Of a stretch of 64,000 nt of DNA, positions 47,561 to 53,978 are shown piece after piece. The translations under genes and the position numbers were made by a program. How positions within the stretch are numbered: position 1 is the stretch's first letter; each line of letters opens with the position of its first letter. Location of the stretch: NCBI GenBank assembly GCA_947258555.1, contig CAMYJF010000001.1, forward strand, positions 1-64,000, given 5' to 3'. Source of the stretch: an uncultured Eudoraea sp. Lineage in GTDB: Bacteria; Bacteroidota; Bacteroidia; Flavobacteriales; Flavobacteriaceae. Below the pieces are notes generated by a model. The model was not told the DNA's origin. It did no database searches and saw only the letters and a list, made by a program, of their open reading frames with translations.

Positions 47561-50500
47561 TCAGATGAATTTAACCTTGACATTTTCTCCAAGGTATACT
47601 AAAATCTTATGAGGGATTTGATATCCCATTTCTTCTAAAACGGCTTGGTAAATATATAGCTGTTTCTCGTGTTCCGGATTTTCCTTTCCGGTTTTATAAT
47701 CAATTATAGTTGCTGTATTTCCTTTTATCGCTATACGATCCGGTCTGAAAATGACACCATTTTTCGTAAGTATGTCTTGTTCGTTGCGGTTGATGTATTC
47801 CTCTGAAAAATAGGGCGCCAGTTGTTCATCGGCAACGACCCTCAGCAATAGATCTCGGATGTTTGCGCTTGATTCATCAGTCAGATCACCATTATTGAGT
47901 CGCTTTTGAATGGCCGAATCAATATCGGCAGAAGTGTGAATTTCACTAAGTAATTGATGGGCCCATCGCCCATGTTCAATTGCTTTTTGCTGCCCGGATT
48001 CCCAGATCATATCGGAATCAACTATGGTGTTCCTGGGCCCATGCTCATGTTGTGAATAGGTAAAACTAATTTCCGTCTCCGAAATGGGGTCTGACACTTC
48101 TTCAAAAGTCACCAGGCTCCCAAAGTCATATTGGAGTTTGGTGTCATCCCATTCTCCCTGTTGCATCAGGTAATTAATGAATAACCCATTGTACGTTTTC
48201 TGGGATGCCTTGCCATCCTTGGTTACTTCCTTATTGGCTAAGACATACAATCCATGGATCGCCCTGGTCAAGGCCACATAGAGGACATTGAAGGAGTCTA
48301 ATTCGAGTCGGCATTGCTCTTCTTCATAGGCGTTCCGTATAGCGTCCGGATATAGCGCAAGACTGGAATTCTTGTTGAGCATTATATGCGACAGAGGGTC
48401 AAAGACCTGTTCAGTTGCAGGCACCCAAATTTTAGGTTTAAGGTCGTCATAGATCCGTGAATTGGCGAAGGGGTAAATAACGATAGGAAACTCCAACCCT
48501 TTTGCCTTGTGAACTGTCATTATTGTCAAGGCATTCAGTCCTTCAGGAGAAGGGATTCCTAAAGAAGATTTTTTTGATTCCCAATGTGTCAGAAAAGTCT
48601 CAATTCCGGCACCTTTGGTTTTCTCAACGGACAAGACCTCATCCAGGAAAAAGGAAATATAGGCAGATCCATTTTCAGCCATGTTAAATTTTTTGATCGC
48701 ATGGGTGCATCCTTCATAAACAGATAAACCCTCCATGGAAACCGGATCATAAGAATATTCGCGAACCAATAATTCTGGGATTCCTTCCAAATGCGCATGG
48801 ATGAATTCATGTTTGTTTTCATTCTGCGGTGCCAGGTAATTAAGTATTTCAAATCCAACGGCAAGATCCGTTGGGTGCAGAGCGAAATACAATATATGTA
48901 TTAGAAAATTTACTTTTGGACTCGATGCCAATAAAAGAGATTCCGGAGAGATCACCGGAACACCCTGGGCGGTGAGTGCCTTAGCCAACAAGCTTGCTTC
49001 CTTTCTTTTTCGGACCAGGATACATACTTCTGGCAATCCGTATCCTTTTTGGGTGCATTCTTCCAGAATGGCAAGAACACCCTGGGTGTATGCCTGTTCC
49101 AGATCCGGATCGGTTTTTTCGATGAATCTCAGGGATACCAGTCCACCTTTGCGTTCATTTATTTCCTGAACCACTTCTTCTTCAAATAAGGATCTGAAGT
49201 CCTGTTGTTGTAAAACAGGGCTGGTCGACTTAAAAAAATCGTTGTTAAATGCGATAATTTCTTCTGAGCTCCTGTAATTTTTTAAGAGTGCGCTTCTACT
49301 TATTTCAGCCTGGAAAGGATTTTGTGTAAGATTTATGAGATTAAGGAATTGTTCGGCCTTTCCACCTCGCCACCTGTAAATGGCTTGCTTAACATCTCCA
49401 ACCAATGTCAGGGAACCTGCATGTCCGGAATCGTCAAGTCCGCTTAACGCACCTTGAATAAGAGGTATCAGATTATTCCATTGGAGTAAGGATGTGTCCT
49501 GAAATTCATCAATAAAATAATGCCGATAGATTTCCCCCATCCTTTCATATATATAAGGTGTAGGCTGGTCCCTGATCTGTTCAGAGATCAATTGGTTGAA
49601 TTTACCTATGGGCAACAACGATCTTTGTTGTTCTATTTCCTGGATCTCCTGATTTATAGAAGCAAGAAGTGTTAGCGGAACGAAATTTCTATATGCATTT
49701 AATAGTAGCACATTTCTGGTGACTTCTTCCTTTTGCTTCAGATAATGTGTTAAGAGAAAATCTAAATGTGTTTCTTTTGGGAGGGTCATTTTGGAATTGA
49801 ATACTGTGCCTGCAGTTAAATTAGTTTCCAATTGATTTCCATACAGTTTGTTCAGATCCCATGGGATCGAATAAAATTTTCTGAAGTGATTGGGCAATGT
49901 TTTTCGGTTAAACAAGCTATCATCTAACTCATGCTCTTTTAAATAGGACAGAACATTCTCTGAAATGGATATGATCTCCTTTTTAGATTTGCCTATTTCT
50001 TTTTTTAGGTGATTTCTGATCTTTTGAAATTCTTCCAAAGACAAGGGCAATAATTCTGCGAGAAAACCTCTGTGATTTTCATTGAATAAGAAACGACCGA
50101 AATTTTGAAGGTCCTTACTGATATCCCAGTTTCTATCTTCCTCTGCCTGTTCAATGGCGAAATCCAAAAGCAAATCCGTTAACTCTTTATTTATACCTGT
50201 CTTGGCAAGAAGTTTATCTACTCCTTCTTCTAAAAGCGCATCCGTATCAAGGGTGACTTCAAAGTTGTGAGCCAGCCCCAGATCTTTACTAAATGTCCTT
50301 ATCAGCCTATGGTTGAACTTATCTATAGTTGAGACATCAAAAAACGCATAGTTGTGAAGGATGTCTTTTAGCAGACTGCGCGAACGATCTTTAATTTCCT
50401 GTTCACCTAGTTGCATCTCCTTACACAGGGCGTGGAACAGAGCGGTGCTTCTCGATGGGATTTTATCATAAGTGAAATCCGAGAGTGACCTGAGAATTCG

Positions 50501-50668
50501 TTCTTTCATTTCATTCACCGCTTTATTGGTGAATGTTATGGCTAAAAGTTTCCTGAAACCTCTTCTTCCACCTTGGGACAAAGCGATCTTCAAATAAGAT
50601 TTCACTAATGTGAAGGTCTTTCCTGAACCGGCTGATGAATGGTATATATGGAAGCTAGGTAGCTGCAT
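47561..50668 (-). CDS. AddA-like UvrD-family helicase-nuclease
   Basis: 1035 residues. Helicase motif I is [18 protein letters not shown], Ia [73 protein letters not shown] and [18 protein letters not shown]. The C-terminal nuclease has RPDRIAIKG and [20 protein letters not shown]. This is the motor-nuclease of a two-subunit AddAB-type complex; the AddB-like subunit is encoded downstream beyond kbl and ompA. Confidence 0.93.
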
Positions 50669-50744
50669 GTATTGAACTGCAAATTACGCAATCTTAAGGG
50701 CATTCTGACAGGTGATTTCGTTTCTCGAGCACGCAAAAAAAATG

Positions 50745-50752
50745 TACCTTTG
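50745..50752 (+). promoter_or_regulatory. -7 box (TACCTTTG) of sodA
   Basis: Full TAnnTTTG match 34 bp before the ATG; the leader would be about 29 nt. No clear TTG is seen at -33. Confidence 0.55.
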
Positions 50753-50786
50753 ATAGTCAAACCTTTTTATTTAAAACAAAGAAATT

Positions 50787-51395
50787 ATGGCTTTTGAATT
50801 ACCAAATTTGTCGTATGCCTATGATGCCCTGGAGCCTCATATAGACGCGCGCACAATGGAAATACATCATACAAAACATCATAACGGATATACGACCAAG
50901 CTCAATGCGGCAATTGCCGGATCAGAGCTGGAAGGCAAGTCCATTGAAGATATCCTGAATGATCTCGACATGTCAAACATGGCCGTTCGGAATAATGGTG
51001 GAGGATTTTATAATCATGTGCTTTATTGGGATATTATGTCTCCCAATGGTGGTGGTACTCCTGGTGGAGATCTGGGCTCAGCAATTGCAGATGCTTTCGG
51101 ATCCTTTGAAGCATTTAAAGATAAGTTTAGCGCAGCTGCTGCGACCAGATTTGGATCTGGTTGGGCATGGCTGTGTGCGCACAAAGGGGGCAAGTTAGAT
51201 ATATGTTCCACTCCTAATCAAGACAATCCGTTAATGCCAAGTACCGGATGTGGCGGACACCCTATTCTAGGTATTGATGTATGGGAGCACGCGTATTATT
51301 TAAATTATCAGAACCGACGCCCGGATTATATAAACGCATTTTTTGAAGTGATCAACTGGGGCCGAGTGGCTGAACTTTACCAAGTAAACAGCTAA
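50787..51395 (+). CDS. sodA: Superoxide dismutase (Fe/Mn family)
   Basis: 202 residues. Metal ligands: His in [16 protein letters not shown], His in [11 protein letters not shown], and Asp and His in [20 protein letters not shown]. The GWAWLC segment and C-terminal [14 protein letters not shown] are canonical. Metal use (Fe, Mn or either) cannot be settled by sight. It has its own promoter and terminator; the sRNA cluster begins just beyond. Confidence 0.97.
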
Positions 51396-51426
51396 TCATA
51401 GGTTAAGAAAATCCTTAAAATAGATG

Positions 51427-51458
51427 AAGCCATTCCTTATATCAAGGAGTGGCTTTTT
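51427..51458 (+). terminator. Rho-independent terminator of sodA
   Basis: AAGCCATTCCTT pairs with AAGGAGTGGCTT (one T-G pair) around ATATC, followed by TTT. Confidence 0.85.
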
Positions 51459-51474
51459 GGTTTGTATAAAATAG

Positions 51475-51544
51475 AAAAGGGCAGAGAAGCCTCCGCCCTT
51501 TTCGTCCCAAATCTTACCATAAACTTAACCTACTTATGCTATGG
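51475..51544 (-). ncRNA. Small RNA copy A of a three-copy family
   Basis: On the minus strand the copy opens with CCATAGCATAAGTAGGTTAA and has 38 of 40 core bases in common with copies B and C (differences at 51505 and 51521). The core is followed by a hairpin GGGCGGAG...CTCTGCCC (one mismatch) flanked by AAAA/TTTT and then CTATTTTA. The -7 box TAATTTAG sits exactly 5 nt before the core. The transcript would be about 70 nt. Upstream activator repeats are not convincing here. The nearest gene is sodA, on the opposite strand. No function can be assigned from this alone. Confidence 0.7.
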
Positions 51545-51549
51545 CAGCA

Positions 51550-51557
51550 CTAAATTA
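51550..51557 (-). promoter_or_regulatory. -7 box (TAATTTAG) of sRNA copy A
   Basis: One mismatch from TAnnTTTG, shared with copy C (TTAG ending). The gap to the conserved core is 5 nt, as in copies B and C. Confidence 0.6.
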
Positions 51558-51671
51558 CTGGTATTGTGAGAAATAACAAAGGTTTTTTCAGAAATTTTAA
51601 ATATAAGGCGATAGTCCTGGAAATAGGAGCTTGGGGTCAAGCACTATTTTTATGCCGAATAAGCACCAAAT

Positions 51672-51741
51672 AAAAAAGGCAGGAGTTATCCTGCCTTTTT
51701 TCCCCAAATCTTACCATGAACTTAACCTACTTATGCTATGG
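51672..51741 (-). ncRNA. Small RNA copy B of a three-copy family
   Basis: Minus-strand core at 51741-51702 identical to copy C in all 40 bases (opens CCATAGCATAAG, ends AAGATTTGGGG). It is followed by a perfect terminator: AAAAAAGGCAGGA pairs with TCCTGCCTTTTTT around a 4-nt loop. The stem sequence differs from those of copies A and C but pairing is kept, which is what selection on an RNA hairpin would produce. The -7 box TACATTTG is a full consensus match exactly 5 nt upstream. Length about 70 nt. Confidence 0.75.
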
Positions 51742-51746
51742 TCCTC

Positions 51747-51754
51747 CAAATGTA
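51747..51754 (-). promoter_or_regulatory. -7 box (TACATTTG) of sRNA copy B
   Basis: Full TAnnTTTG match, 5 nt before the conserved core. Confidence 0.65.
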
Positions 51755-51784
51755 TGCTAAAGGGACACAGCCAAAAAAGGTTTT

Positions 51785-51817
51785 GGATGAACGCCTCTTT
51801 ATTCAGTTGAAATGCGC
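51785..51817 (-). promoter_or_regulatory. Degenerate upstream repeat pair of sRNA copy B
   Basis: GGATGAACGCC and GTTGAAATGCGC (plus-strand reading) have their TGAA at 51788 and 51808, that is 47 and 67 bp upstream of the start of core B. The perfect repeats of copy C have TGAA at exactly 47 and 67 bp from core C. In a 31-base alignment the two regions agree at 19 positions. Confidence 0.5.
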
Positions 51818-51905
51818 AATGATGGGTTAATTGAAAGAATTTTCGTTCTATTCGTATTAGGTGGGATTGAAAGCTTGTAGCTAGAAGTCGCAAAGATGGA
51901 AAAAT

Positions 51906-51976
51906 AAAAAAGGTGGAGAAGTCTCCACCTTTTTTGCCCCAAATCTTACCATGAACTTAACCTACTTATGCTATGG
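51906..51976 (-). ncRNA. Small RNA copy C of a three-copy family
   Basis: First copy in reading direction, with the best upstream site. The core at 51976-51937 is identical to copy B. The terminator is AAAAAAGGTGGAGA pairing with TCTCCACCTTTTTT, again a private stem. The -7 box TACTTTAG (one mismatch) is 5 nt upstream and no -33 TTG is present at the right distance, which is typical of an activator-dependent promoter. The perfect direct-repeat pair at 52020-52060 is centred about 60 bp upstream. The possible Rfam match to compare is the Flavo-1 family; I cannot verify it. Confidence 0.78.
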
Positions 51977-51981
51977 CAAGC

Positions 51982-51989
51982 CTAAAGTA
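51982..51989 (-). promoter_or_regulatory. -7 box (TACTTTAG) of sRNA copy C
   Basis: One mismatch from TAnnTTTG, 5 nt before the conserved core. Confidence 0.62.
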
Positions 51990-52019
51990 AACGAGTCACT
52001 CCCCAGACCTCTATAAATC

Positions 52020-52060
52020 CGATGAAATACACTTTTTATCGATGAAATACACTTTTTTAT
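52020..52060 (-). promoter_or_regulatory. Perfect direct-repeat pair upstream of sRNA copy C
   Basis: On the plus strand CGATGAAATACACTTTTT occurs at 52020 and again at 52040, with the start of a third (CGAT) at 52061. The period is 20-21 bp, so both lie on one face of the helix, at about -44 to -56 and -64 to -76 from the sRNA start. This is where an activator that works on a promoter without a -33 element would bind. The related pair at 12541-12576 has the same orientation to its promoter. Confidence 0.7.
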
Positions 52061-52079
52061 CGATTTTGCGGTAATTTGT

Positions 52080-53978
52080 TTAGTACGCTCTTTGATTCTT
52101 GCCTTCGAAGAAATTGATGAAAGCTCTGTTCACCACCCTGTTGCCTCCAGGTGTAGGATAGTCACCAGTAAAGTACCAGTCGCCTAAATTATGTGGGCAG
52201 GCCCGATGTAAATTTTCAATTGTCTGGTATATAATCTGAACCTCTGCTTGCACATGATCCGGGCATAGAAGTTCTGCTATTTTATTGGAAATTTGTTCAG
52301 GAGTTAGGGATGAATAAAATTCCTGTACATGATTGACAACCTGATCGGCCGGTAATTCCATAGAACCTATACATTTATCATATACGCTTTTGATCAAATC
52401 CTCATTTCCCGCATCTTTGTGCAATTGCAGCGCTGCCCTGAAGGCGATGAAATCTTCCAGTTTTGCCATATCAATCCCATAACAATCAGGATATCTTATC
52501 TGTGGGGCTGAAGATACTACTATGATCTTTTCAGGCCCTAGGCGATCCAGAATACTAAGAATGCTCTTTCGTAGCGTAGTGCCTCGCACAATGCTATCGT
52601 CAATTATTACAAGGTTATCTCCCGATTCAACAGAACCATACGTTATGTCGTAAACATGCGCCACCAGGTCATCCCTACTGCTGTCCTGTGTTATGAACGT
52701 CCTAAGTTTTGCATCCTTTATGGCCACTTTCTCTATGCGTGGCCTGATATTGAGAATTCTATGCAAGTCTTCACTGGTAATTGTATTCCCCAGATCCAGA
52801 ATTTGTTTTTCCTTTTTGGAATTCAGATAGTTTTGGGCTTCGTGGACCATACCGAGAAAAGAAGTTTCAGCCGTATTGGGAATATAAGAGAATACCGTTT
52901 TCAACAAGTTGTGATCTATTGCCTCCAGGATTTGTGGAAACAAAAAGCGGCCCAGGTTCTTGCGCTCCTCATATATCTCCTTATCACTACCCCTGGAAAA
53001 ATAAATACGTTCAAAGGAGCAGGCTCTTCGTGTTTGAGGTTTTAAAACTTCCTGGATAGAAAAACTCGCATCTTTCTTTACGATTAAGGCATGCCCCGGG
53101 TCTAACTCCTTAATTTCATCATAAGGCACATTAAAAACAGTTTGGATAGCCGGTCGTTCTGAAGCAACTACGACCACCTCTTCATCCTGATAAAAATAAG
53201 CAGGCCTGATCCCCGAAGGATCTCTGAGAACAAAGGCATCACCATGCCCCAGCATGCCTGCCATGGTATAACCTCCATCCCAATTCTTTGCAGATTTGCG
53301 AAGGATCTTTGCCACATTTAATCTTTCGGCGATAATAGAAGAGGCTTCAATCTTAGAATGCCCCTGCTTCTTAATATCCTTATATAACTTGGCCACTGCA
53401 TCATCCAGAAAGTGACCTATTTTTTCCATGACCGTAATAGTGTCAGCTTTCTCTTTTGGATGTTGGCCTAATTGAACGAGATTATCAAAGAGCTCATGAA
53501 CATTGGTCATATTAAAATTCCCGGCAACGATCAGGTTTCGATGCATCCAATTATTCTGACGTAAAAAGGGATGTACCGTTTCCAAACTATTCTTTCCAAA
53601 AGTGCCATATCGTACATGCCCCAACATCAGTTCACCGATATACGGAAGATTGCTTTTCTGCCAGGCCACGTCATCTTCCTTACCTGGATTCTCGCTAAGT
53701 AAATTACCCACTCGAACATTTATCTGATCAAATATATCCTGTATAGGTTGGGGTTGTACAGAACGGATCCTGCTCATATAGCGTTCTCCCGCAGCCATAT
53801 TCAATTTGATGCTGGCAAAGCCTGCTCCATCTTGTCCGCGATTGTGCTGCTTCTCCATCATCAGGTACATCTTATGCACCGGATAAAAGGCCGTGCCGTA
53901 TTTTTCTTTATAATATTCAAGGGGCTTGCGCAGGCGGATCAGGGATACTCCGCATTCGTGCTTGATGGCATCACTCAT
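52080..53978 (-). CDS. PurF-family amidophosphoribosyltransferase, long form
   Basis: 632 residues, about 130 more than typical PurF. The Ntn-hydrolase nucleophile is Cys9 in KHECGVSLIRL, so eight residues must be removed as a propeptide. HNRGQDGAGFASI, LGHVRYGTFG and the glutamine-site segment NLIVAGNFNMTN are visible. The phosphoribosyltransferase loop is VIIDDSIVRGTTLRKSIL. Long forms of this kind occur widely in Bacteroidota, often beside a classical PurF; whether this one is the purine enzyme or a paralogue with another acceptor cannot be told here. A PfkB kinase gene lies 33 bp upstream on the same strand. Confidence 0.88.
   Translation of the reverse strand: MSDAIKHECGVSLIRLRKPLEYYKEKYGTAFYPVHKMYLMMEKQHNRGQDGAGFASIKLNMAAGERYMSRIRSVQPQPIQDIFDQINVRVGNLLSENPGKEDDVAWQKSNLPYIGELMLGHVRYGTFGKNSLETVHPFLRQNNWMHRNLIVAGNFNMTNVHELFDNLVQLGQHPKEKADTITVMEKIGHFLDDAVAKLYKDIKKQGHSKIEASSIIAERLNVAKILRKSAKNWDGGYTMAGMLGHGDAFVLRDPSGIRPAYFYQDEEVVVVASERPAIQTVFNVPYDEIKELDPGHALIVKKDASFSIQEVLKPQTRRACSFERIYFSRGSDKEIYEERKNLGRFLFPQILEAIDHNLLKTVFSYIPNTAETSFLGMVHEAQNYLNSKKEKQILDLGNTITSEDLHRILNIRPRIEKVAIKDAKLRTFITQDSSRDDLVAHVYDITYGSVESGDNLVIIDDSIVRGTTLRKSILSILDRLGPEKIIVVSSAPQIRYPDCYGIDMAKLEDFIAFRAALQLHKDAGNEDLIKSVYDKCIGSMELPADQVVNHVQEFYSSLTPEQISNKIAELLCPDHVQAEVQIIYQTIENLHRACPHNLGDWYFTGDYPTPGGNRVVNRAFINFFEGKNQRAY

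Follow-up and report, generated by a model that had tools for sequence, protein, structure and literature searches.

The array between sodA and the purF-like gene

The window (the whole 64,000-nt stretch of DNA analysed) carries an array of three short minus-strand units between sodA, which encodes an Fe/Mn superoxide dismutase (50787-51395, plus strand), and a gene for a purF-like glutamine amidotransferase (52080-53978, minus strand). The former is a convergent neighbour and marks the locus, and the latter lies upstream of the array; its name, purF, is our reading beyond a weak Pfam match to GATase_7. A pattern search of the window placed the cores of units C, B and A at 51976-51938, 51741-51703 and 51544-51506, agreeing to the base with the three units of the initial annotation, and no match arose in 100 shuffled versions of the window (chance expectation 0.00). 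Units C and B match at all 39 nt of this pattern and unit A has a C-to-T change, while the 40th base is G in units B and C and A in unit A. The 40-nt core is thus as it was originally described, identical in B and C and with two changes in A (C to T at position 24, G to A at position 40). A terminator stem of 13 pairs, followed by T's, lies behind each core (C, 51935-51906; B, 51701-51672; A, 51503-51474), and the earlier observation that these stems differ in sequence and still pair holds for all three, each being fully paired. Fold z-scores against shuffles were -4.2, -3.2 and -4.0 for the three units.

Unit C, of the first class (51906-51977, minus strand), comprises a 5' hairpin with an invariant loop, the linker GATTTGGGGC and the terminator stem AAAAAAGGTGGAG/CTCCACCTTTTTT. 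Unit B, of the middle class (51672-51742, minus strand), is defined by its core, its fold and a C at core position 24, and unit A, of the last class (51474-51545, minus strand), by a T at that position and a GGGACG linker. As had been claimed, a box of the TAnnTTTG/TTTAG type ends exactly 5 nt before each core. These predicted -7 boxes, all on the minus strand, are TACTTTAG for unit C (51982-51989) and TACATTTG for unit B (51747-51754), both identified from the sequence and the consensus of their class, and TAATTTAG for unit A (51550-51557), identified from the sequence. When the window's own assembly was searched (2.73 Mb, 104 contigs, 95% complete), these three units were the only copies found. 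These features are best explained if the units are paralogues, each encoding a small regulatory RNA with a predicted length of about 72-77 nt. A protein-coding core was considered and rejected by eye, all codon positions being equally invariant and the ATG-like frame of the core entering non-conserved terminators.

Across the whole window, Rfam 15 gave no family at the gathering threshold except tRNA, twice. Flavo-1, a flavobacterial RNA motif that the initial annotation thought might already cover the core, had no match up to E=10 over 50500-53000, and no other Rfam family reached gathering there. Neither Qrr nor Rsm-type RNAs matched at gathering in the window or to E=10 over 50500-53000, and the likeness to them suggested at the outset stands as an analogy, with neither among the Rfam matches. 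The model for FopS (RF04319) scored 19.9 bits on unit C and 17.3 on unit B, not reaching its gathering threshold of 56, and the weak matches to STnc40, sraA and FopS were set aside as they look, by eye, terminator-driven. The open-access literature searched did not describe an RNA of this family, and as far as that search goes the family is undescribed. Candidate sRNAs of F. columnare are listed without Rfam matches in the available text of one report (PMC5395568), so copies of the array family may sit unlabelled in such lists, and one of Rfp1-89 of F. psychrophilum (Table S8 of PMC9723704) may be such a copy.

Distribution, synteny and the conserved hairpin

Comparison with relatives argues that the predicted sRNA gene family is real and widely conserved across the Flavobacteriaceae. 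The BLASTN search against relatives proposed in the initial annotation, run with one unit as query, found matches in 164 of 199 genomes of the window's family, and R1, a covariance model of the 43-nt core that uses sequence only, matched 331 of 395 family genomes (84%), representing 175 of 203 genera. Applied to the order, R1 matched 67 of 395 genomes, 64 in the same family and three outside it; one of these three (G566, from another family of the order) carries a purF-sRNA-sodA-uvrD locus, and the remaining two matches are weak. Over the phylum there were matches in 26 of 296 genomes, all of the same family. The locus in G566 (L106) could reflect an ancient origin, transfer or a binning error. 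A pattern scan of named genomes returned at least 118 stretches, and among the 80 matches listed the names were Maribacter, Zobellia, Flavobacterium, Aquimarina, Robiginitalea and similar ones, or Bacteroidota/Flavobacteriia; the five genera named are Flavobacteriaceae.

Synteny is equally widespread. A purF-like gene and/or sodA adjoins the array in 29/29 (L008-L036), 18/20 and 20/20 of the loci fetched, that is, in 67 of the 69 relatives' loci read, and the two loci with neither neighbour are second loci of their genomes. Split arrays or second loci away from purF/sodA were seen at L054 and L057 (G007), L051 and L052 (G094) and L056 (G120). Copy number exceeds six in some genomes, with seven R1 matches in G588. 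The order promoter, core, terminator, which the initial annotation expected of homologues, is present in the relatives' loci read, and the 40-nt core is nearly invariant across them. In all 84 distinct hairpin segments (169 units, 70 loci) the 3'-side UGGU is paired with the 5' arm, and pairing-preserving changes include A-U/G-U exchanges at the base of the hairpin and a shifted pairing in L043. This comparative evidence supports the earlier proposal of a multicopy, independently transcribed and probably trans-acting sRNA family.

Unit classes and their predicted promoters

Class statistics were taken from 27 loci with 3-6 copies (13 with three, 10 with four, three with five and one with six), which were among the top BLAST matches of unit C; this choice favours similar first units and leaves the middle and last ones unselected. 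Units are spaced 156-431 nt apart (median 209). Core position 24 is C in 26/27 first units and 46/46 middle units, and T in 27/27 last units, and the linker continues after GGG with GCA in 27/27 first, GAA in 44/46 middle and ACG in 25/27 last units. The promoter regions also fall into first, middle and last types, each with its own conserved sequence in the 27 loci, and the earlier statement that the DNA between units is unrelated has to be modified accordingly, these regions being not wholly unrelated. In last units the information content of the promoter spacer is about 17.6 bits out of 20 for the ten positions up to and including the initial base of the -7 box; the predicted promoter of unit A, TTTGTTATTTCTCACAATACCAGTAATTTAG (51550-51580, minus strand), has this spacer, nearly invariant over the 27 loci. 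Upstream of unit C there is a direct repeat, (A)AAAAGTGTATTTCATCG x2 (52019-52061, minus strand), and upstream of the first units of relatives TTTCATCG occurs in 15/27 loci where 0.35 would be expected. Middle-unit terminators have 33 distinct 5' arms among 46 units, each forming at least 12 pairs. Going by these sequences, the units fall into three fixed classes (first, middle and last), each having a predicted promoter of its own, and the fixity of the promoters within each class suggests that different signals may feed one common RNA activity.

Complements of the core in mRNA leaders

Away from the arrays, the weak R1 matches proved to be complementary copies of the core. A set of 25 hand-chosen genomes, mostly of near relatives, contained nine such sites at E<=0.01, where about 0.25 would be expected, the E-values being rough because of a shortened calibration. 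These nine comprise four sites of a class here called S1, one of S3, three of S2 and one mRNA leader, and among the 62 sites read, with E up to 0.42, there are 8 S1, 11 S2, 5 S3, 3 S4 and 35 others. An open frame of at least 60 codons begins between -5 and +35 nt from the site on the complementary strand in 9/62 cases and on the other strand in 1/62; two of the nine are S1 loci, and with the S1, S3, S4 and S2 sites removed the figures are 7/35 against 1/35.

Predicted duplexes over start codons reach -45.0 kcal/mol in L288, -41.2 in L228, -35.4 in L287, -34.9 in L250, -34.2 in L293, -34.0 in L226 and -31.9 in L309, with weaker leaders in L248 (-23.8), L300 (-23.4, the site lying 29 nt upstream) and L241 (-15.2); L226, with a frame of 42 codons, and L228 were found separately, outside the 62-site set. 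The products include a CAP-domain lipoprotein (L228), a subtilase (L287) and an Amidase_3 protein (L300), and all those listed except that of L226 begin, by eye, with a signal peptide or lipoprotein signal. Typically the AUG of the target is paired close to the sRNA's 5' CAU, and CCCAAAUC lies opposite the linker GAUUUGGGG. Relatives thus have unlinked loci whose mRNA start regions are complementary to the core.

In the window's own genome no strong mRNA target was found, and the array itself was all that R1 reported there at E<=10, with 150 of the 1686 candidates scored. The short seed TTAACCTACN{0,6}ATGA occurred 120 times in 149 genomes against 242 times for its reversed control; with no excess over the control, a genome-wide target list cannot be drawn up by that route. 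The own genome has no such short-seed site before ATGA. Among 29 short-seed sites that were read there were 10 open frames of at least 60 codons, three of them (L335, L344, L348) seemingly internal to longer frames, and strong pairing was confined to L331 (-30.2), the internal L339 (-33.0; 59 codons) and a few others. The pattern CCCCAAATC..ATG gave three matches in the own genome and three in the control, which is no signal; two of the three are the array and one lies, by eye, before a mazG-like gene. That gene, on contig C74 of the same assembly (L233, 1490-1530), starts with TATTTTTGCCCCAAATCTGAGACTATG, 16 nt of which are complementary to unit C, a site not above the control rate. Pairing is clear where it is long.

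Candidate sponges

S1, S3 and S4 appear to be separate RNA units complementary to the sRNA seed, and on that pattern they are candidate sponges. The S1 loci, eight copies in seven genomes, have in common a promoter, a GTCCCAAATCTTACCAAACTAAACCTACTTAATGCT-like body of roughly 38 nt and a terminator. R2, a model of S1 that includes the promoter, matched 40 of 249 family genomes at E<=3e-8 (counted among the matches listed), seven of the 40 having supplied the model; the weaker R2 matches listed are mostly the array read backwards. In G129 there are four tandem S1 copies. The predicted duplexes of S1 with the core lie between -28.1 and -47.0 kcal/mol in the loci read, 29 of 30, with shuffle means of -13.0 to -16.8 kcal/mol and z-scores of -4.6 to -10.2. 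S1 is mostly found beside yidC. In a set of 30 genomes it adjoins that gene in 15 (one locus being cut by a contig end) and S3 lies behind hflX in 11, counts that are not frequencies because the genomes were hand-picked and include known S1 or S3 carriers. In the same-genus sister genome G106, S1 was not found beside yidC; the yidC of the own genome lies at the very end of a contig. A single TTGACAACT-like box stands 47 nt upstream of S1 in the four loci examined (L234, L235, L243, L246).

In S3 a pair of CCCCAAATC-like sites is separated by 34-46 nt, and an ACCTAC-like sequence and a terminator often follow. Duplexes with z <= -2.7, a cut-off fixed after the values had been seen, occur behind hflX in 12/30 genomes on the hflX-sense strand and 1/30 on the other, and two of the 12 (L367, L371) have no CCCCAAATC-like site close behind the gene. 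In the own genome (L379) and in G106 (L381) hflX is followed by one CCCCAAATC site, one TACCTACT site and a terminator. An exceptional continuous duplex is absent there (z -0.8 and -1.6), so an own-genome S3 sponge would rest on position and motif, which suggest a weaker form of it.

S4 is represented by three loci (L296, L299, L316) carrying CCCAAATCTTACCAT, which has 15-16 nt of complementarity with the core and a terminator behind it. All adjoin a response regulator, of LytTR type by Pfam in L299, where the other flank is an exported-protein gene with no Pfam match. Direct TTCACAACA-like repeats 21 bp apart are found in 7/7 S3 and S4 sequences (six loci: L236, L245, L227, L296, L299, L316), about 60-100 nt upstream of the sites, a spacing which we take to resemble that of LytTR sites. 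A similar repeat pair was seen by eye at the target L287. Twenty S1, S2, S3 and target loci (S4 loci not included) gave no Rfam match at gathering.

The S2 element, TCCCAAATCTTACCATAACCT...GCGCRTGGATCCTGTGGAATTTTTG...GATAAGCG, accounts for 11 of the 62 sites (L237, L239, L240, L244, L247, L249, L252, L253, L291, L295, L313), which have a complement of roughly 18 nt in common. It lies upstream of mobC/relaxase-like genes in L237 and near a relaxase-like gene in L252, these genes being named by eye. S2 may be a transfer origin that incidentally contains the core complement, or a decoy on mobile elements, and it was left out of the sponge count on account of its mobilisation-like neighbours in some loci and this possible role as a transfer origin.

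Proposed mechanism and alternatives

What can be read from the sequences themselves is the family, with its synteny, classes and hairpin, and its complementarity to start codons and sponge loci; transcription, repression as the direction of the effect, titration and the inducing signals are what the following proposal would add. It is highly probable, in our judgement, that the array sRNAs act through an antisense core that blocks the translation starts of exported proteins, that they are titrated by sponges, and that they are driven by promoters particular to each class. Each RNA would consist of a 5' hairpin exposing AGUAGGUUAAGUU in its loop, then the single-stranded linker GAUUUGGGG and finally an intrinsic terminator. 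CAUAAGUAGGUUAAG together with GAUUUGGGG would pair with leaders of the form CCCAAAUC...ACUUAACCUAC..UUAUG, and with the start codon covered by the duplex, translation of the exported protein would be blocked. In many relatives the antisense RNAs S1, S3 and S4, each with a predicted promoter, a core complement and a terminator, would titrate the sRNA. Antisense pairing over start codons, with titration by dedicated sponges in a large subclade, is the most likely reading of these data.

A wider version can be put forward tentatively, as one that falls a little short of being probable: a competing-RNA circuit spanning the family, in which mRNAs for exported proteins and no fewer than three sponges of independent origin compete for the core, with co-switching through LytTR. 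Since the 21-bp TTCACAACA repeats are common to S3, S4 and some targets, a LytTR-type two-component system may co-switch both, and it could be speculated that such a system turns on sponges and targets while the array represses them.

The near-invariance of the core spans some 31 nt and counts against a pure-seed reading. It goes beyond the usual need of a seed and may be due in part to a protein partner. Taken further, the same feature suggests that the RNAs are protein-binding decoys, whose hairpin loop and linker would bind a CsrB/RsmZ-type system's protein or one of RRM type, with tandem copies providing dosage and the complementarity being secondary. Almost the entire 40-nt core is invariant, more than base-pairing requires, and the copies have been multiplied. 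A protein decoy predicts sites that resemble the sequence, however, and what recurs is the complement of core and linker, over the start codons of leaders and in very strong predicted duplexes, as well as in separate promoter-terminator units; we regard the decoy as improbable. It is less probable still that the roles are reversed, S1, S3 and S4 being the effectors and the purF-sodA array their sponge. Both sides do resemble independently transcribed RNAs, and the array is multicopy and decoy-like, but it is present in 331/395 family genomes against 40/249 for S1, and the mRNA leaders stand on the complement side along with the sponges. Leaders and sponges both carrying the complement, the array would be their common antisense partner. 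A conserved DNA element between the purF-like and sodA genes, whether a regulator-binding or a recombination repeat, would fit the intergenic position and the high conservation at the DNA level, but is hardly credible given the promoter box at a fixed distance, terminator stems that vary yet stay paired (33 distinct 5' arms in 46 middle units), the recurring RNA hairpin and the complement at start codons.

If the antisense reading is right, the locus bears on how flavobacteria choose their exported enzymes and lipoproteins. The literature searched says little about post-transcriptional control in Flavobacteriaceae; the Bacteroidota examples in it were FopS and GibS of gut Bacteroides and Rfp18 of a fish pathogen. 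The array locus, found in 84% of the family genomes sampled, absent from Rfam 15 and with a readable pairing code, offers a testable entry point, and the recurring pairs of sRNA and candidate sponge form an unusual natural series for studying how decoys originate.

Comparison with known systems

The nearest known system in logic, going by the portions of the report available to us, would be FopS of B. thetaiotaomicron. FopS has 14 copies with a single-stranded 5' seed; its predicted targets are enriched in mRNAs of outer-membrane (SusC-like) proteins, repression was shown, and the RRM protein RbpB counteracts FopS (PMC11697453). On that account, both are multicopy paralogues of Bacteroidota with a common 5' sequence followed by a terminator, and both appear to have exported targets, those of the array being apparent by eye. 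The tandem copies at one syntenic locus, the 5' hairpin and the antisense sponge loci belong to the array, as far as the same text describes FopS, and there is no significant sequence match between the two. Rfp18 of F. psychrophilum is described in the consulted part of its report as strongly structured, with a third stem-loop pairing with predicted targets, one deletion mutant with effects and a link to exported proteases (PMC9723704). Like the array family it is a flavobacterial sRNA tied to exported proteins; the array units fold into one hairpin and a terminator, and would be set apart from it by that description of a third stem-loop.

The Qrr sRNAs of Vibrio are several and near-identical, have private promoters and act by base-pairing at start regions, and their genes are Hfq/sigma-54-dependent. 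The likeness of the array to them lies in near-identical copies with private promoters; it is found in a different phylum and has no Rfam match. In sponges of the SroC type a second RNA base-pairs with the sRNA and lifts its effect, and RNA sponges have reportedly been found in Bacillus and, it is said, in Caulobacter as well. What distinguishes S1, S3 and S4 from the known sponges is that here several unrelated loci carry the complement of one core.
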